Positions 17,463 to 36,500 of a stretch of 57,317 nt of DNA are shown one piece after another. The translations under genes were made by a program, and so were the position numbers. The notes under the pieces are model-generated. The model did not search any database. It was not told where the DNA came from and was given only the letters and a program-made list of their open reading frames with translations. The stretch is from Chromera velia (lineage: Eukaryota; Sar; Chromeraceae): assembly GCA_018398765.1 (NCBI GenBank), contig JAHBMJ010005891.1, positions 5,001 through 62,317 of the forward strand, given 5' to 3'. The stretch's first letter is position 1; each line of letters begins with the position of its first letter.

Positions 17463-18150
17463 TCATGAACGTTCAGGAGACCTGTCAGTGCGGGAAATGA
17501 CAATCTCGTTGGCATCAATCAATTCCCTCTTCGCGCAGCAGGGGGGACGAATAGTCCTGCCCCGTCCGTACACCATACGGCTCCTGAAGGACACACAGGC
17601 AGAACCGCCAAAGAAAGACTGAAACCCCATATGAATACCCGTGAAGAACCGTCGCCACTCGAAGCAGAACATGTCGCCACAGCTGGCCTGCCTGGGCGGC
17701 AGCCACTCGGGGAAACCATACTCATCGAACAACAGCACATCGTACTGCCGCATGAGTGGGTAGTTCCAGGGGTTTCGTCTGGGCCACGTGTGGAAGCTCT
17801 CATCGTGTCTGTCCTCCCACTGGGTGGGTACCCTGCGGGGGGAAGCGCTCGGTCTGGTTCTCTCTCTACAGTTGGGACAGGAGAACTGTGGGTAGTTGTT
17901 GAGGAACCAGGGCTCCAGGCACTTTGGGTGGAATGTGTGCTCACAGGCAGTCACTGCGATCCGCTCACCCTCCCTGAGCCCTTCTTGACAGATCGTGCAC
18001 CTGCAGGCAGAGTTCACCGGAGTGTAAAGAGTTAACAGAGAACGAATCAGACAGAGACGGACAGCGAAACAGGGAGACGGCGAAAGGAACTTACTCGCCA
18101 ATCTTGGCCTGCGCACGCGAGGCCGAGGCCATGGCGCAGCTGGGAATCAT
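17463..18150 (-). CDS. RING-H2 finger protein, 197 aa, two exons
   Basis: Exon 1 spans 18150-18095 (start MIPSCAMASASRAQAK) and exon 2 spans 18000-17463. The donor is GTAAGT and the acceptor CTGCAG. The junction restores frame exactly (594 bases including the stop). Zinc ligands fall at C20, C23, C38, H40, H43, C46, C60 and C63, the C3H2C3 pattern of RING-H2 domains, which usually act in E3 ubiquitin ligases by recruiting E2 enzymes. After the RING, about 130 residues are rich in aromatic and basic residues (for example WPRRNPWNYP and FEWRRFF) and are not recognised. No membrane segment is evident. A second in-frame Met at residue 7 could also start the protein. The gene diverges from the 1128-aa gene, with about 680 bases between the starts. 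Substrate unknown. Confidence 0.8.
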
Positions 18151-24140: not shown

Positions 24141-24699
24141 CTATGCCCGCAAGCCGCTTGACTCCCAGGCAAAGCGGGCGGAGGATTCGCCGTCCTCCCC
24201 CACGTGTTCAATATTCATGCTGTGGTAGGCGTAGTGGACCTGCATGCATGCACAGACGGAGGGAGAGAATTAAGGAATGTGGATCGAGAAGCTACACGAT
24301 CTTGGGTGTATGGACATAGACCGACGCCCGATCGAGGAATTGATGTGACTCTTCGATTGCGCATTGGAGCGGCGGACGAAATAAGAGGAAGTCACTAAGC
24401 TAAGAGGTATGCAGGCGGAGTGAATCTGACTGATTGACTGACTGACTGACAATCATGTTCGCCTCCCCTTCGACAGTCGAAGTTCCCTCTGCATCCGGTC
24501 TCTGGCGGTTGACGATTTGAATGTCAGAGAGGCGTCCCTCAAATGCGGAGAGCTCCATGTACTTCTCCTCCTGTCCGTCCCTTCTGTTGTGGAAGAACTT
24601 GATCGTCGCGTTGACAGTGTGTCCCCTTTCAAGGGCCTGCACGCATCGGGCACAGGTCAATGGGTTGAACGGAGACCCCATCGGCGTGCGTGCGTATGG

Positions 24700-24771
<72 letters not shown>

Positions 24772-25983
24772 GTGTTTTGAGTCAACTACAATTTGGGTAT
24801 GCATTTTGACAGTCTCCACAAGAACACACACAGCGTGAGACTGAAGAAAAGCGCAGGCAAGGTCAGGGTTCTGTTCAATTTATTCTGCGTTGATCTCCTG
24901 ATGCCTTCAACTGCATCCGTCTGTCCCTGAAGTTCTATAGAGCATTCTTTTTCTGTCTGCGTGTTTGTTTGTTCGTTCGTTTGTTTGTTTGTTTGTTGAT
25001 CTCCTGTTGGCCCCACCTGCCTCCGTCTCTCCCTGAAGTTCTGTAGAGCATTTTTTTTCTGTCTGCATGTTTGATAAGAATAGCGCTAAAGGTGTTGCGA
25101 GAGAGATGGAGGAGACAGTCACTGGCCTGCATGAGCATGGGAGTTGCCGGGCCCTGGGGCATATCAAACTCGATTCTGTCGTAGTGTGTGTGGCCGGAAA
25201 CGCGGGCTCCTGTGCCAATGTCTCTCTTCAGGCCGTAGGTGACACGCTTGCACTGGATCCACTCTCCCCTGCATGCATGCATGAAGCAGAAAATGAAAAA
25301 AAAGTACGTGCATGTGCGCGTAGCCATTCTGTTCCGGCGTGGTTTTGTCATCTTGTTCAGTAGGCCGTGGATAGGTTCTCTGCATGGGCAGGTGTGCTGA
25401 ACGAATGCGACAGACAACGAAGTCACGTCAGAGGGGGCCCGTTCGCGCCCCCCCATTTCGACCTTCACTGTTTGCAGGAGCCCGTCTGGTAAGAGAAAGG
25501 GGAGGCAGGCAGCGAGATCAGACTGACAGGCATACAGACAGGCTCACACTCAGGCCAACAGACCATAACGCGTGCAGATGCACACAGAAAAAGGTGGACA
25601 GGCAAGTAGCCAGACAGAGACGGACACCGACTGGCACGTAAATGGACGAATTGGCAGACACGTAGATGTATGAAGTGGCAGGTGTTCAGGCAAGAAAGCA
25701 ATGACCGATCAAGAGTCTAGGACAGACAAGTGCATGCACAGGCCCTCAGAGAAAGGCACGAGGGGCAGCGCAAAGCCTGCCAAGGCATCGGTCCGGAAGT
25801 AGGAGAGGACAGGAATAAAAATGACACAGAGAAGCGGGGACTCGTACGAGAGGCAGAATGAGAAAAAGAAGGGGAAGGAAAGCAAGGAAGGCGAAGGAAA
25901 GAAGGGAGGAGAGAAAGGAAGGGGGGGATGCAAAACTTAATTCTCCAAGGGGTGAACAAGAAGTTCTTACAGACACACACACA

Positions 25984-26028
<45 letters not shown>

Positions 26029-26167
26029 TTCAGGGAGAGAGAGGACTCTACCTGGGAAGTTCTTCCCCTCCGATGTTTGTGATGTCGGTGTTGCCTGTCA
26101 CAGTTCTCCCGTTCGCCTCAAACTTGACGAAGGCATAGTGTGTTCCTGCCTGCGCAAGGTTCAACAT
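24141..26167 (-). CDS. Hcp-like protein (type VI secretion tube family fold), 180 aa, four exons
   Basis: Exons are 26167-26052, 25268-25127, 24636-24451 and 24239-24141, giving 543 bases in frame. The product follows the whole Hcp domain: a first strand (HYAFVKFEANG), the WIQCKRVTYGL strand at the place of the family's IEVxSFSxG, a loop with GHTHYDRIEF, the conserved core TPMLMQALERG (family DxxSPxLxxAxxxG), the strand pair TVNATIKFFHN and EEKYMELS, then SDIQIVN, and a C-terminal strand and tail ending FAWESSGLRA (family GWDL-like end). Hcp monomers are about 160-180 aa and form hexameric rings that stack into the T6SS tube in bacteria. No other T6SS gene is present here. Donors are GTAGAG, GC (see findings) and GTCAGT; the three acceptors are TGCAG. 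No signal peptide is seen on this start; an upstream exon is possible. Function in a eukaryote is unknown. Confidence 0.8.
24701..24769. repeat. compound TG/GA microsatellite in Hcp-like intron 2
   Basis: A TG array (24701-24735) passes into a GA array (24739-24769). It lies just upstream of the third coding exon in the gene's direction. Confidence 0.9.
24889..25073. repeat. duplicated 79-base segment flanking a TTTG array
   Basis: Two copies of about 79 bases (24889-24967 and 24995-25073), both starting GTTGATCTCCTG and ending in GTTTG, are separated by TTTG/TTCG repeats. They differ at roughly a dozen positions. Both lie inside intron 2 of the Hcp-like gene. Each copy, read on the minus strand, has an acceptor-like GCAGACAG followed by an open frame. 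Confidence 0.75.
25974..26024. repeat. CA microsatellite in Hcp-like intron 1
   Basis: A nearly pure CA array next to the first coding exon of the Hcp-like gene. Confidence 0.9.
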
Positions 26168-27566
26168 GCCTGCGCACATGCAAAAAGTCACGCCAAATAA
26201 CACAACAAAGGCGTCGCTGGGCTTTTGTCCCTGACTAAATCGGAACCCAATATAAATTAGGCTATGTCAACGAGTTAAGGGCAAAACTGCTCACCGTTCT
26301 GACGTCATGGGAACAAACAACAGGTTCATACTTTTCGTCTGCGCCTGTATCATATACATGCATATATAAATGCAGGAGGGATTCCCCCTTACGGCTCTCC
26401 CCTCCCCATCTTACTTTCAGTTTGTCATGACTGTTATGCTCGACAATTGAAGAAGCAAGTTGATGACTGCGACCAAGAGTTGCCTGTACAACAACAAACA
26501 ACAGCATGCAACAACAACAACACAAAAGCTCACCGAAGAAAAAGAGGGCAAAGCATCCCCAAGTCTTCAATCTGCATCGAAGCCAGCGGCAAAAAAGGGA
26601 GTAACGAAGAATCCCGAAATATACTGACGTGCTTCATCCCTTGACTTACGAGAAAGATGACGACATGGCTGTGGAACAACGGTCTGCAACACGCGGAAAA
26701 CGAGGTTGAGCAACAGTCGGCAACAGTGCGAACTTTTCTGTCCGAGCAGGGCAAGCAACTCCACGACTTGCTTCCAGAGAATAGACAATCGAGTACAGTA
26801 ACAAGCAACAGAGCTATCAATAGAGCCGTATCAAATATGTATGTGCGACACACTGCTCCCAGATTAATTGAGACGGATTGAACGAGAGTTATTTGCTGTA
26901 CGCGGCTTGCCGATCGATTCAAGATCGAGTTGCCTCTCGCGCGATCGATCCGGCCGCGGGTTGCAAAATATTAATCGGTTTCGCGTCGCCTCGGGGGGCA
27001 GCTCAGCTCTGCTGAGATCAGCCGAGAGGCCCTGAGATCGCACGCACTCGCATAACGCATTTTTTCATTTTTGAGGGGGGGATCGGTTGTATCCCGTATA
27101 TATGTACACGCGTGCATTTATTTTTTGTTCCAGTACCATGCACCCGCGCGCAGCCACTTTGCGCGCGCATCTTGAGTGCAAGCAGATTTAAAAAATGATT
27201 ATATTTTAAAATTAAGATTAATATATATAACTATATAGAAATTCCGAAGCTCTGTATCTAAGATCCGATACAGAAAAGGATCGAGGTAAAATTTAATTAT
27301 GTATATATGTAAAATATTTTCATAAATTACCATACAAAAAAGGTAACATACAGAGCTCCAGAAAGGTCCCATACATATGCACGCACGTCGACCGGCGCTG
27401 CGTGCCAGACCATGGTTTCCTCTCTTCCTTTTGAAACTGTTTTGCTCTCCAAATACAGCACCTACTCCACAAATTCGCAGTAGAAGTACTTCACCACGGC
27501 AGACACTCGTGGGCTCTCGTGACTCATTTGCGTCCATGACAGTCCGCACTCGAACCTGCACAGGCA
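26168..27566. other. spacer between divergent Hcp-like and giant repeat-protein genes
   Basis: This interval is the shared upstream region of the two central genes. Possible non-coding 5' exon segments of the Hcp-like gene exist (for example a stretch bounded by GTACAG and GTAAGA near 26490-26420 on the minus strand), but they cannot be joined in an open frame. The part from 26890 to 27180 is GC-rich with GCGCGC runs. The part from 27180 to 27370 is AT-rich and bounded by a short inverted repeat. Confidence 0.4.
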
Positions 27567-30500
27567 ATGTCAGACCCATTTGACCAAAGGGGGCCACCTC
27601 GACTGGTCCCCATCTCCATCACTGCTCCTCCTGAAACGGGAAGACCGTCAGCTGCGAGTCCACACTCACCAGGAGGTTTAGAACCTATCGAACCACTTGA
27701 CAGACCTTCACGCTTACAGTTTGAGGCTCCCCTACCGCAAAGCCCTTCAGCCGACAGTCTATCAGCAAGAGGGATTCTTTCCACCACTTTCGACAGGGGA
27801 AAGGATCGCAAGAAGTCTCTTGGGATTTCCTTCGGAAGCAATTGTACACGAATAATACACGCTGGAGATAAGCCGAGACAAGCTGGTGAGTGCTTTGCCA
27901 CCCTTCCGTCACGCCAGCGTGAAGACACAGACGGGAACCGAATGGTGATTCAATGTTACTTACCTGTGTGCGTGTGTGCTCATGGATGTGTTTTCAGGTC
28001 TCGGTGACTCCAAAGGACCCCATCTTCGCAATTCCAACAGCTCCCCTGGTCGGCACATCTCCCTCATCACCGTTCGAACACCTCTCTTCTGCCTTGCCTG
28101 TCTACCTGTTCAGCGGCTTTGTTTGACAGACCTTTGTTACCAATCAGCCTGCCTGCCTGCCTGCCTGCCTGCCTGTGTGCCTACATACATGCATGCATGC
28201 ATACATTTATGCATTCATGCCTGCAGATCTTCTTTCTCCAGTGTGCAAGTCGAGGGAACAGCTTGCAGAACTGATGAAGGCCGAAGTGCAGACGGACGCC
28301 CTTCTTTCTGAGGCAGCTGCCAACTTGGAGAGAAGGCCGAAGAAAGGGTCAGTCAGCAGGCAGGAAGGGTCGCAGACACACAGGCAGGAAGGCAGGATAT
28401 TCTCTTAAGGGCTCTTCCTTTCGACTTTCCATTCATCAGTCCCCGTCTACATACATGCCTTCCTGCTCCACACGGACGGGAAGAGAAACTGCACTTTCCT
28501 GTCCCCTTTTTGTCCTTTGATTGTGTCTCCCTGCCTCCCTTCACGACGGCATCAATCCCCCAGTCTTGTCTGTCCATCCATCGGTCATTTGCCAGTTCTC
28601 GCTGCTCGCTTCCTTTCTCTGCTCTGCTATCTTGTCAGCCCCCCCTGTGCTCAATGTGTACCTTCCCCACCCACCCCCGGTTGACGTTGGTTGTTGTTTT
28701 TTTGCCTTCCAAATCGGAGATGTGGCCCTTCTTCTCCCCTGCATGTCCTTGGGAGAAACTGTTTCTCCCTCTTCCTGCACACCCTCTTTCCGCCCTCTCC
28801 ACACAACCAGACGGCAGAGGCACACAGAATCCCTTCAGCCCCCTTCCAAACACTCCCTTTTTGGTACCTCTGTGTGTGTGTGTGTGTGTGTGCGCAGGCC
28901 GTCCACGCTACCCCCTCCCTCGGCATTGAGAACTGGAAACAGCGCACCATCGCTAAGAAAGTCAGTCAGGCAGGAAAACAGTGTGTGTCACGATTCTTTT
29001 CACCCGATTGTTTTTGCCTGGGCACCATGCCCATCGACGCGAAGGGCCCCCCCTCAGTCGATCGATCAGTCAGCCCGGCTGCCTCCTTTTCCTTTTCTTT
29101 TTTTGTGGGCGCACGGTGTCCCCGAGTTCTCCCTTCAGGGATTCTGTCCCGGTTGTTCGGACGTTGCCACGCCACACGGAGGAGTGTGGGAGGCAAATAG
29201 ATATTCATGATGCATTTATGTAGATGAATGCGGTTGTGTATGTACGGAAGAGTTGCGTATGTGCGTGTACTTCTTCTTCTTTCAGGGATTCCGGGAACTC
29301 AGAAGTCTTCACAAGGAAGAGTGTGCAAGGGATTGGGGGCAGCAGGGGTGTGAGCATTGCCGACGACACAGAAGTCCGACACTACGAGGTGGCCACTTCT
29401 GGTCGACTTCGCTGTCAGTCCCTTCACAAGCCGTCTCCTTTGTCTCTCTGTCTTTTGTTTCTCTGCTTTTTTGATCGCTTGCTTCTTTTGAATTCGCGTT
29501 CCCTCATCAGAATATGAAATGCACATGAATTCCTCGTCTGCTTCCCTCTTTCGTAGCCTTTCTCTGTCTTTGTCCCTCTGCTGACCCGTCTCTTCAAATA
29601 CAACCAAATCCTCAATTTCCCGTTTTGCCTGCCTGCCTGCGTGTGCTTTCCTCTGTTTCATATACCCAAAAAAAGTCTCTGTCTCTTCTTCTCCTTTCAC
29701 TCCACTTCTACCCTTTGACGGAACTGAATGAATGCAGCGTATCACAACCCCTCCAGTGACTCCGACAACAGCGGCCCCGCACAGCCCCCTATTGCACGAA
29801 AGAAAATGTCCCAGACACTGCCCTCCTCCTCCCTCCGAGCAATGCTGGAAGAGGCAGGAATCACACAGCCACTTTCGCGGCAGACACCTCCGCAGTCAAC
29901 TTTAGGAGCCTCCAGCTCCAGTGTCAGCCGCCCGCCCCCCGCCCCCCCTGCCTCTTCTGTCCAGTCAGCCCCCGCCGCAGCTTCAGGTTCCGCCCCGCCA
30001 AGGTCCGAGCAGCCTTTTATTCCCAACGGTCCTCCTGCCTCTTCAGCGACTTCCCGTCAAGCCCAGATTGCGGGGGGCACACGTGAGCCTGGGGGTCGCG
30101 TAGCTCGGAAGCAAACAGGGTTTCCTGGTAACTTTTCGAATCTCAGTCTTGGGACAGAGGAGGACAGTGATGACGGGGCTCAACGCAAGGAGGAGAAGAA
30201 AGCACTAGAGGCTCATTTGGCCGAGTCTTCACAGAGGAGCAGTAATCAAAGAAAGCCGAAAGGAAACAGTACGGGAGGGAAGGGGGGAGGGAAACGGTCA
30301 TCAGCAGAAGAGGACTCCGATGCCACTGGCCCTCAGCCGTCGGTAAGCGTTCAGTCTTCAGCAGCATCGAGTGCGCCTCCTAAAGCACGGATCGAGGCGA
30401 CGGTTCAAGAGGGAAGGGGAAAGGTAAACAGAAAGGGCACTGGCTATCCCAAGGCCATGGCTCTTGCGGCAAAAATAAAACAGGAGGAGGAGGAGGAAGA

Positions 30501-33500
30501 AGAAGCGGACTTTATTTCAGGGAAGGCCAAGATTGCTGCTGGCACTCAGGAGCCTCGGGGGAAGGTCAATCGTAAGGGCACCGGCTATCCCAAGGCCATG
30601 GCTCTTGCGGCAAAGATGAAGCAGGAGGAGGAAGAGGAAGAAGAGGAAGACGCCGCTTCCTCTGCAAAAGCCAAAATTGCTGCTGGCACTCGTGAGCCAG
30701 GGGGCAAGATAAAGCGAAAGGGCACTGGCTATCCCAAAGCCATGGCTCTTGCAGCAAAGATGAAGGAGGAGGAGGAAGAGGAAGAAGAGGAAGACGCCGC
30801 TTCCTCTGCAAAAGCCAAAATTGCTGCTGGCACTCGTGAGCCAGGGGGTAAGATTAAGCGAAAGGGCACTGGCTATCCCAAGGCCATGGCTCTTGCAGCA
30901 AAGATGAAGCAGGAGGAGGAAGAGGGAGAAGAGGAAGACGCCGCTTTCTCTGCAAAAGCCAAAATTGCTGCTGGCACTCGTGAGCCAGGGGGCAAGATTA
31001 AGCGAAAGGGCACTGGCTATCCCAAAGCCATGGCTCTCGGTGCAAAGATGAAGCAGGAGGAGGAAGAGGAAGAGGAGGATGAGGAAGATGACGCCGCATC
31101 CACCCATGCCAAGATTGCCTCTGGCACCCGGGAGCCTCGGGGGAAGGTGAACCGGAAAGCCACCGGCTATCCCAAGGCCATGGCTCTTGCAGCGAAGATG
31201 AAGCAGGAGGAGGAAGAGGAAGAGGAGGATGAGGAAGATGACGCCGCATCCACCCATGCCAAGATTGCCTCTGGCACCCGGGAGCCTCGGGGGAAGGTGA
31301 ACCGGAAAGCCACCGGCTATCCGAGGGGAATGGCTCTTGCAGCAAAGCTGCAACAGGAAGAGAAAGAGGAGGATGAGGAAGATGACGCCGCATCCACCCA
31401 TGCCAAGATTGCCTCTGGCACCCGGGAGCCTCGGGGGAAGGTGAACCGGAAAGCCACTGGCTATCCCAAGGCCATGGCGTTGGCTGCCAAGAAGAAGCAG
31501 GAGGAGGAAGAGAAAGAGGAGGATGAGGAAGATGACCCCGCATCCACCCATGCCAAGATTGCCTCTGGCACCCGGGAGCCTCGGGGGAAGGTGAACCGGA
31601 AAGCCACCGGCTATCCCAAGGCCATGGCTCTTGCTGCCAAAATGAAGCAGGAGGAGGAAGAGGAAGAGGAGGATGAGGAAGATGACGCCGCATCCACCCA
31701 TGCTAAGATTGCCTCTGGCACCCGGGAGCCTCGGGGGAAGGTGAACCGGAAAGCCACCGGCTATCCCAAGGCCATGGCTCTAGCTGCAAAGATGAAGCAG
31801 GAGGAGGAAGAGGAAGAGGAGGATGAGGAAGATGACGCCGCATCCACCCATGCCAAGATTGCCTCTGGCACCCGGGAGCCTCGGGGGAAGGTGAACCGGA
31901 AAGCCACCGGCTATCCCAAGGCCATGGCTCTTGCAGCAAAGATGAAGCAGGAGGAGGAAGAGGATGAGGATGAGGGAGATGAGGCCTCTGTCCATGCTCA
32001 CATTGCTGCCACCACCCGGGAGCCTCGGGGGAAGGTGAACCGGAAAGCCACTGGATATCCGAGGGGAATGGCGCTTGCAGCAAAGATGAAGCAGGAGGAG
32101 GAAGAGGATCATGAGGATGAGGGAGATGAGGCCTCTGTCCATGCTCACATTGCTGCCACCACTCAAGAGCCTCGGGGGAAGGTGAACCGGAAAGCCACCG
32201 GCTATCCCAAGGCCATGGCTTTGGCTGCAAAGATTAAGCAGGAGGAGGAGGAAGATGATGAGGAGTATGAAGAAGATTTTGAGGCAGAGGAGGAGGAGGA
32301 CAGCCACTCCGTGCACGCTCACATTGCAGTAAGCACAAAGGAGCCCCGTGGGCGGGTGGACAGAAAGGCCACAGGCTACCCCCGCGGAATGGTGTCTGCG
32401 CAGAAGCAGCTGCAGCGAATGGAAGACGAAGAGTCTCTGCACGCTCACATTGCAGACGCAACAAGGGAGCCCCGGGGGAAGGTCAAGCGCACCCCCACAG
32501 GCTACCCTCAAGGCATGAAGAAGTTGCCTTCGGAAGGCGACGAGGGAGGTCCGGCAGCCTCTGGTGCTCCAGCGGAAGGAGATCAAGCAGAGCCAGTCTC
32601 ACCTTCTCGAGCTGGTGGTATTTCCTTCGAGCCCGGGTGTAAATCCGATGACGATGAGCCCAGAAGCCCTCAAGGGGATGACGGGGGGTGTTTCAGTCCT
32701 GCTTCAGCCCGAAGCAAATTCTCTGAGACCTCCAAATCCGGTCTGGAGCTTGCGAAGGAGTTGGGGGTCAGATACGATGCAGCTTTTGATGATTCAGACT
32801 CAGAGCTCACTCCCCCTTCCTCAAGCTCTGAAGAGGAGAGTGATGGTAGTGACTTCAGTCCGGGTGTGACCAAGAAAGTTGACGCCCCCGCGGGCATGGA
32901 CGACTCAGCAGAGAATCATGCGGAAGGAGAGGGAGAACCGGGGGGGCGTTTGCCTGCAGAACCCGATCCCGTAACCTCAGCAGAGCGAGAGACCTCCCCT
33001 GCTTCAGCAGCCTCAAAGCCCCCTCGGGAGCATGGAAAGGGAAAGAAGGAAAAGAAGGGACAGGCTGACGCATCTTCTCCAAAGTCACGAGGAAAGAAGC
33101 ATCAGCAGCAGCAGCAGCAACAGCAAGTATCATCCCCCGATTCCTCTCCCACAGCCGCTCCATCCCGTCCGCCGGCGACCAACATCGCGTCTGGAACGAA
33201 AGAACCAAGGGGTAAGGTCAATCGAAAAGCCACCGGATATCCAAAGGGCATGTCAGCACCTTCGATGCCTTCCTCAGACGAAGACGGAGGAGAGGACGCA
33301 GCTTCTAACCATGCTCACATTGCTGCCACCACTCAAGAGCCTCGGGGAAAGGTGAACCGGAAAGCTACTGGATATCCGAGGGGAATGGCTCTTGCAGCAA
33401 AGATGAAGCAGGAGGAGGAAGAGGAAGAAGAGAGTGAGGAAGATGAGGCTTCTGTCCATGCTCACATTGCAGCCACCACCCGGGAGCCTCGGGGGAAGGT

Positions 33501-36500
33501 GAACCGGAAAGCCACTGGATATCCGAGGGGAATGGCGCTTGCAGCAAAGATGAAGCAGGAGGAGGAAGAGGAAGAAGAGGGTGAGGAAGAGGAGGCTTCT
33601 GTCCATGCTCACATTGCAGCCACCACCCGGGAGCCTCGGGGGAAGGTGAACCGGAAAGCCACCGGCTATCCCAAGGCCATGGCTCTTGCAGCGAAGATGA
33701 AGCAGGAGGAGGATGAGGAAGATGACGCCGCATCCACCCATGCCAAGATTGCCTCTGGCACCCGGGAGCCTCGGGGGAAGGTGAACCGGAAAGCCACCGG
33801 CTATCCCAAGGCCATGGCTCTTGCAGCGAAGATGAAGCAGGAGGAGGAAGAGGAAGAGGAGGATGAGGAAGATGACGCCGCATCCACCCATGCCAAGATT
33901 GCCTCTGGCACCCGGGAGCCTCGGGGGAAGGTGAACCGGAAAGCCACCGGCTATCCCAAGGCCATGGCTCTTGCAGCGAAGATGAAGCAGGAGGAGGAAG
34001 AGGAAGAGGAGGATGAGGAAGATGACGCCGCATCCACCCATGCCAAGATTGCCTCTGGCACCCGGGAGCCTCGGGGGAAGGTGAACCGGAAAGCCACTGG
34101 CTATCCCAAGGCCATGGCTCTTGCTGCCAAAATGAAGCAGGAGGAGGAAGAGGAAGAGGAGGATGAGGAAGATGACGCCGCATCCACCCATGCTAAGATT
34201 GCCTCTGGCACCCGGGAGCCTCGGGGGAAGGTGAACCGAAAAGCCACTGGCTATCCCAAGGCCATGGCTCTTGCTGCCAAGAAGAAGCAGGAGGAGGAAG
34301 AGGAAGAGGAGGATGAGGAAGATGACGCCGCATCCACCCATGCCAAGATTGCCTCTGGCACCCGGGAGCCTCGGGGGAAGGTGAACCGGAAAGCCACCGG
34401 CTATCCCAAGGCCATGGCGTTGGCTGCCAAGAAGAAGCAGGAGGCGGAAGAGGAAGAGGAGGATGAGGAAGATGACGCCGCATCCACCCATGCCAAGATT
34501 GCCTCTGGCACCCGGGAGCCTCGGGGGAAGGTGAACCGGAAAGCCACCGGTTTCCCAAAAGAGATGACTCTGGCTGTTAAGAAGGAGTTGGAGGAGTTAG
34601 AGGATGACTCTGAAGAAGAGGAGGATGAGGAAGAAGAGCATGAAGAGGAGGAGGACGCAGAGTCCGTCCATGCCCACATTGCCTCCGGCACCCGTGAGCC
34701 TCGAGGAAAGGTCAAGCGTGTGCCTACAGGATACCCCAAGGGAATGCACAAGCTCCCTTCCGAAGACGCAGAGTCAGTCCACGCCCACATCTCCCAAACC
34801 ACCAGGGAGCCCCGCGGAAAGGTCGACCGGAAAGCCACCGGTTTCCCCAAGGAAATGACTCTCGCTGTGAAAAAGGAGTTGGAGGAGATAGGGGACAGTG
34901 AGGAAGAGGAGGAAGGGGATGAAGACGTCGAGGAGGAGGAGGAGGAGGACAGCCACTCCGTGCACGCTCACATTGCAGCAAGCACAAAGGAGCCCCGTGG
35001 GCGGGTGGACAGAAAGGCCACAGGCTACCCCCGCGGAATGGTGTCTGCGCAGAAGCAGCTGCAGCGAATGGAAGACGAAGAGTCTCTGCACGCTCACATT
35101 GCAGACGCAACAAGGGAGCCCCGGGGGAAGGTCAAGCGCACCCCCACAGGCTGCCCCAAAGGATTCAAGACTCTGCCCTCCGGAGGAACCGAAGACGAGC
35201 CAACGCAGCAGCGAGCAAAGATTGCTTCTTCGACAAAGGAGCCTCGTGGAAAGATCAGCCGCAAGGGCACGGGGTATCCGAGGGGCATGGTAAAGGCAAA
35301 AGCAGCAATCGCACAGGAAGAGGATGAATCAGAAGATGAAGAGTCCGTACATGCCCGCATTGCCGCCAGCACACGTGAGCCTCGTGGGAAGGTTGCACGC
35401 AAGCCCACAGGTTACCCAAAGAAGAAAGCGGATGGCAAGGGAGGGATATACGAAAAGGCGGGTACCTCCTTTTCTGTGTACGGGAATGAGCATGGAGTGG
35501 AGCTCTCCGACGAGCCTGATGGCACAGCGACCCCCCAGTCGCATCATGATGTCCATTTTTCAGGTTCGGTCAGAGATGAGAAGAGTCGACTGCGGTCCAC
35601 ACGAAAACCCACAGGCTTCCCGGTGGATATGGAAGAAGCTGCGAGGGAAGCAGGGGTTGAATATATTCCAGGGGAGAGCTCTGAGGAAGACGAGTTCCTG
35701 GTAACATTCAACTCAAAGACAAAGGAACCCAGAGGAAAGGTAAAGAGGGTACCGACCGGTCAGTGTGCATGCATGTCCGTCTTGTCGACTCCTCTTGATT
35801 GTCATTTGTCCCATTGGCTCTGCATGCCAAATTTCGACTTTGTGAGTGCTTTCTCTCCTGGTCGTAAACCTCTCACTTGAGCATTTCTCTATTTCCAATT
35901 TGCCGTTTCTCTCATGCTCGCTAGGCGACTAAAGAAGCCTATTTGTTGCTACTGTGTTGCCCCAGTGTGCTTGTTTGAACCTTTCTGCCCTTGTCTTCTC
36001 GTGCACGCTCGTTGATTCCTTGATTCCTTGATCTGCATGCAGGATTCCCAAAGTCGCTTCCCCAGTCGGAGGTCTCTCGAAGCTGCGGGGCAGAGAACTC
36101 GAAGAGCGTGGCTTCCATCAGCTCCTACCCTGAGAGCAACCTGGAGGTCCCCCCAGCACCTGCAGGGTCGGAAGAGTCTGGCAGTCAGACTGTCAGGAGC
36201 AACGTCCGCAAGCAGTCGCACGGTCAGTCAGTCACTCCGTCTGCCCTTCTGTCTGTCTGTCTGCCCACTCGTCTGGGCGTCTGTTTGTCTGCTTGTCTGT
36301 ACGACTACAAGCTTCTGTGTCTCTCTGTCGTCATGTGTGCATGCATGCGAGAAAGATAGACCACCTTTGACTGTTCTTCGGATGTTGTCTGCTTCCGTAT
36401 GAGTTTTGAAATTTGTCTTGATTGCGTCCATTGACTTCCTTCCTCACCTTGACCGGGTTTTTTTCCCTTATGGATGGACTTTCTGCCTGCAGGCTTCTTC

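Follow-up and report, generated by a model that had tools for sequence, protein, structure and literature searches.

An intron-bearing Hcp-fold gene of Chromera velia belongs to a small, mostly leader-bearing subfamily of Hcp proteins

Introduction

Proteins of the Hcp (TssD) family form the inner tube of the type VI secretion system (T6SS), an injection machine of bacteria, and are usually viewed as meaningful only as part of that system. To our knowledge, Hcp is otherwise a bacterial family. Here, we analyse an Hcp-fold gene of Chromera velia, a culturable single-celled alga related to the malaria parasites, encoded on the minus strand of a 57,317-nt stretch of its genome (assembly GCA_018398765.1, contig JAHBMJ010005891.1, positions 5,001–62,317; hereafter, the window). 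In contrast to canonical T6SS Hcps (for example, 5urw of Myxococcus xanthus), the Chromera protein does not reach the cut-off of the NCBIfam TssD model TIGR03344, many of its relatives carry leaders, its subfamily is set off by a stem of 2.42 changes per site and conserves one loop segment more strongly than the rest of the protein, and no T6SS genes were seen in the two subfamily neighbourhoods read, the Chromera window and a Polyangia metagenome-assembled genome (MAG). We would class the protein in the Hcp family, within a small subfamily whose members mostly bear leaders and next to which no T6SS was seen, and not as a T6SS tube.

Gene structure and paralogue

The gene comprises four minus-strand coding exons. 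The first (26052..26149) opens at the domain start common to the subfamily, AGTHYAFVKFEANG, and a further 18 bases (26150..26167), whose translation is contained in protein P0001, extend it to the start MLNLAQ. The second (25127..25268) encodes the most conserved segment, GEWIQCKRVTYGLKRDIGTGARVSGHTHYDRIEFDMPQGPATPMLMQ, which lies in residues 51–69 of P0001, in the position that loop L2,3 takes in Hcp; the third (24451..24636) encodes ALERGHTVNATIKFFHNRRDGQEEKYMEL...GEANMI and the last (24141..24239) VHYAYHSMNIEHVGEDGESSARFAWESSGLRA and the stop codon, joined through an intron whose position and phase 0 recur in a paralogue. The second intron (24637..25126) has GC–AG ends (ATGCAG/gccagt), and its GC donor is kept in the paralogue, in the matching intron at L010. 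All four exons of the original prediction are thus present, and their spliced product of 180 residues is identical to P0001. As the longest P0001 contig measures 1,223 bases and the exons span 2,027 bases in the window, the introns cannot fit in that contig, which is transcript-like, although its origin from RNA is not proven.

The window lies on contig C3962 of the 177.8-Mb assembly (4,040 contigs). Searching the genome with the protein gave nine exon matches: five lie on C3962 and the other four on contig C1413, where the spliced gene equals P0007, recorded in UniRef as 'Type VI secretion system tube protein Hcp' of C. velia, a record that also points to the species. All three introns are common to both copies at the same position and phase. 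The two proteins are 75% identical over 162 codons, with dN of 0.205 well below a dS of 1.94 that is near saturation, indicating purifying selection. The claim of a eukaryotic nuclear gene with introns is therefore backed by the introns common to a second locus and by the identical P0001 product; the gene is a real and conserved Hcp-fold gene of C. velia.

Family assignment and predicted fold

The protein passes the curated cut-off of the Pfam family T6SS_HCP (28.1 against 23.5 bits), and monomer models predict the Hcp barrel with one helix over its full length, in agreement with the full-length Hcp homologue and Hcp-type fold originally proposed. A sequence search of the PDB (E up to 1) listed two chains, both Hcp, the best being a myxobacterial T6SS Hcp. 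Tube proteins of phages, pyocins and extracellular contractile injection systems are less similar than the Hcp rows (10.8–18.3). Reading the gene as an Hcp-like tube gene was right as to homology and too simple as to function: its nearest relatives lie outside the canonical T6SS tube genes, in a separate small subfamily in which many members have leaders, which changes the likely role of the gene.

A nearly invariant loop

In 20 subfamily rows, mean pairwise identity is 0.86 over residues 51–69 (GLKRDIGTGARVSGHTHYD), and the other three regions reach 0.57, 0.62 and 0.53; the loop value is 0.93 in the ten bacterial or other rows and 0.83 in the eight rows of eukaryotic or presumed eukaryotic source (P0014–P0016 being presumed, here and in the approximately unbiased (AU) tests below). 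In 37 other Hcp rows, the same segment stands at 0.28, against 0.26–0.37 elsewhere. Among five picked clades of these (30 of the 37 rows), it ranks first in one (0.74, against 0.70) and in the rest falls inside or below the range of the other regions. Ten residues (W42, G51, R54, D55, G59, R61, V62, G64, T66 and Y68) are invariant in 28 aligned members including P0001, the alignment leaving aside seven partial ones of the 35 found. Judged from its spacing to the helix rather than by superposition, the segment corresponds by position to loop L2,3 of B. pseudomallei Hcp1. In a study of Hcp1, a double change in this loop abolished ring pairing, and the loop was hardly conserved across the six Hcps compared (PMC4650826).

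Distribution of the subfamily

Relatives at E of 0.001 or better numbered 29 of 99 scored candidates in a first protein search and 35 of 7,998 in a second, which includes the first and scored only the candidates sharing most words, so that at least 35 relatives exist. Members with a known source are the Chromera paralogue P0007, P0012, P0017 and P0028 from EukProt (P0017 is labelled 'Rhum', which we take to be Rhynchopus humris, having confirmed only that such a diplonemid exists) and the Myxococcota proteins P0009 and P0010 (by name) and P0011 (through L011). BLAST identity to the window protein is 58, 50 and 50% for P0009, P0010 and P0011 and 71, 67, 56 and 40% for P0007, P0012, P0017 and P0028; overall, the named Myxococcota proteins lie at 50–61%, and P0002 reaches up to 78%. 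Domain start and nearly invariant loop are the same in these myxococcal and protist members as in the window protein, from which P0008–P0011 differ by an insert of about 28 residues after IEFD. This insert, of the type GGPGFPALTKALE...YTHIGF after RIEFD, also occurs in P0031 and, strongly changed, in P0026, and resembles an incomplete repeat of the adjoining segment.

A scan of 84,980 species genomes yielded one relative, in the Polyangia MAG, and profile searches for the subfamily matched 1 of 317 Polyangia and 1 of 377 Myxococcota genomes, whereas PF05638 matched 75 of the 377. Weak matches came from three further Polyangia genomes; two (L014 and L015) look like ordinary Hcp and the third has an internal stop. 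None of the pattern matches in a virus collection (0 of 5 and 0 of 59) encodes a relative, a single weak match came from a plasmid collection (identity of 28% over 71%), and the longer relative P0034, used as query, matched nothing but itself. No paper on the leader-bearing subfamily was among the literature matches listed, nor, judged by title or opening of abstract, was any on eukaryotic Hcp.

P0018–P0025 have in common an almost invariant first half that ends at a sharp boundary, beyond which they differ (46 columns are invariant across all eight, 45 of them at or before a GPxTP motif and one after). P0027, P0029, P0033 and P0035, on contigs of 599–3,440 bases, each place a single conserved family piece beside unrelated sequence and are either mosaic genes or chimeric assemblies; by eye, the end of P0035 resembles an EF hand.

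Leaders

Leaders were judged by eye and from hydropathy. Of the 35 subfamily proteins, 8 have a Tat-like motif within their first 40 residues, and the named bacterial members have Tat-like leaders. Several further members have Sec-like leaders that end at the domain start AGTHYxF, and hydrophobic leaders stand at the start of the paralogue and of P0012, P0017, P0028, P0014 and P0015. For the window copy, a leader is a prediction from sequence: putative minus-strand exons at 26650..26666 (MSSSFS, donor gtaagt), 26534..26571 (hydrophobic, LKTWGCFALFFF, donor gtgagc) and 26295..26344 (ADEKYEPVVCSHDVRT, donor gtgagc), with consensus donors, would run in frame into AGTHYAF to give MSSSFSLKTWGCFALFFFGADEKYEPVVCSHDVRT. 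Neither of the two outermost exons has support from P0001, and the donor of the third ends all the open chains found. Outside the subfamily, two other open frames of the Hcp family from Myxococcota (L042 and L045) have, by eye, leader-like hydrophobic stretches before the domain, and export of Hcp-like proteins may thus have arisen more than once.

Phylogeny

Two trees used the same 20 of the 35 subfamily proteins, one with 37 other Hcp rows added (57 rows); 15 partial or half-divergent proteins (P0018–P0025, P0027, P0029–P0031 and P0033–P0035) were dropped. In the 57-row tree, all 20 subfamily rows fall on one side of the stem branch (100/100), nearest to the Polyangia Hcps L014 and L015 (94/85). 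The 20-row tree splits 11 rows, including all three named Myxococcota, from five eukaryotic-source and four other rows (90/94), a split not recovered as resolved in the 57-row tree.

Genomic context

The window contains 60 unspliced open frames of at least 150 codons. No T6SS family was found in the nine neighbours of the Hcp gene scanned, in line with the remark in the original prediction that sheath, spike and baseplate genes are missing nearby. One open frame (17463–18146, minus strand) encodes a RING-H2 finger (zf-RING_2, 40.1 bits), and another of 2,050 codons (29728–35880, plus strand) encodes many copies of a repeat of about 46 residues (IASGTREPRGKVNRKATGYPKAMALAAKMKQEEEE). Within 10 kb of the Polyangia member, no T6SS genes were recognized by eye, and its MAG, of undetermined completeness, has neither a VipB match nor a second PF05638 match. 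In the whole Chromera genome, VipB gave no match in a type of search that misses intron-split genes, including this Hcp; PF05638 likewise gave none, even for this Hcp, because the exons are scored apart, and negative family searches of this genome therefore count for little.

Discussion

We favour, at a probability of about one half, the reading that the gene encodes a nuclear, single-domain Hcp-fold protein of bacterial ancestry, from a subfamily that works outside the T6SS, is exported and forms Hcp-like rings through loop contacts or with a partner. A bacterial ancestor, perhaps from Myxococcota, would have been taken up by a eukaryote and gained introns, the gene duplicating before the two Chromera copies diverged. 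Tat-like leaders on bacterial members and signal-peptide-like leaders on protist ones suggest that delivery is probably ordinary export and not sheath-driven expulsion of a tube, the subfamily seeming to have left the T6SS. In the mechanism that we consider most likely, the exported barrels would assemble into Hcp-like rings, and the almost fixed loop would make ring-to-ring contacts or bind one conserved partner, the protein thus working outside the cell or in the endomembrane system as a ring or binding protein.

Several observations weigh against this reading. TIGR03344 scores 37.2 bits against its curated cut-off of 58.9, model confidence in the loop is low (block means of 48 and 59) and P0002–P0005 and P0013 have no leader as predicted. 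Eleven open chains lead to the acceptor at 26149, among which the leader chain of the window copy ranks second by hydropathy, and it is equalled in hydrophobicity by 4 of 200 Markov-shuffled controls; P0001 begins with MLNLAQ and keeps residues that the leader-exon join would remove, so that the join was not used for this gene in the contig behind P0001. In AU tests, neither grouping of the subfamily with either other group (p-AU 0.43 and 0.38) nor a single clade for all eight rows of eukaryotic or presumed eukaryotic source (p-AU 0.48) was rejected. The repeat protein at 29728–35880 has a single Pfam match, to the phage tail terminator PF12691 (35.4 bits, no single stretch passing, residues 1–1591 scanned); as this falls within the repeats, we take a phage tail identity to be spurious.

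The start of P0001 at MLNLAQ would also suit an unsecreted, cytosolic protein, an intracellular binding protein or ring made mainly from that start, as would the leaderless metagenomic members that begin at the domain. This is a possible but distinctly less probable account, given the hydrophobic leaders of the paralogue and five other relatives and the mechanical nature of start calls from short contigs. As to the direction of transfer, we favour bacterium to eukaryote because the named Myxococcota proteins are 50–61% identical to the window protein and Hcp is otherwise bacterial. Of the two origins originally offered, acquisition of a bacterial gene that then gained introns is thus the likelier, and the phylogeny with bacterial Hcp places the subfamily firmly on one side, although the AU tests fail to separate its placements and leave root and direction undecided. 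Passage from a protist to Myxococcota, with the leader-bearing bacterial forms as recipients, would fit that unsettled root and the rarity of the subfamily in the bacteria searched; we consider it rather improbable in view of the spread of PF05638 through Myxococcota, the myxobacterial T6SS Hcp as best PDB match and the Tat-like leaders of the bacterial members.

A working T6SS-like injection machine in Chromera, with this Hcp as its tube, would explain why predicted fold and loop are retained. It is very improbable: no T6SS family appears in the nine of 60 open frames scanned, VipB has no match genome-wide in a type of search that misses intron-split genes, and leaders would route the protein to the wrong compartment. 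Hardly any weight falls on contamination from bacteria or on a transferred gene in decay. Bacterial relatives are 50–61% identical, but the gene has introns that recur at a second locus, its product is also encoded by an intronless contig, dN is well below dS and the paralogue is recorded for C. velia in UniProt.

Overall, the original observation of the gene is confirmed, and its interpretation in part. Beyond the reading that we favour, a bolder and rather unlikely proposal is that Hcp freed from the T6SS forms exported rings or tubes in bacteria and protists, in Chromera an extracellular or vacuolar structure reached through the secretory pathway and held together by the loop. With two copies, a small protein and a culturable host, Chromera lends itself to direct tests of where the protein resides and whether it forms rings. 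That Myxococcota and protists share a small and strongly conserved subfamily, which has leaders and next to which no T6SS was seen, suggests a second job for the Hcp fold.
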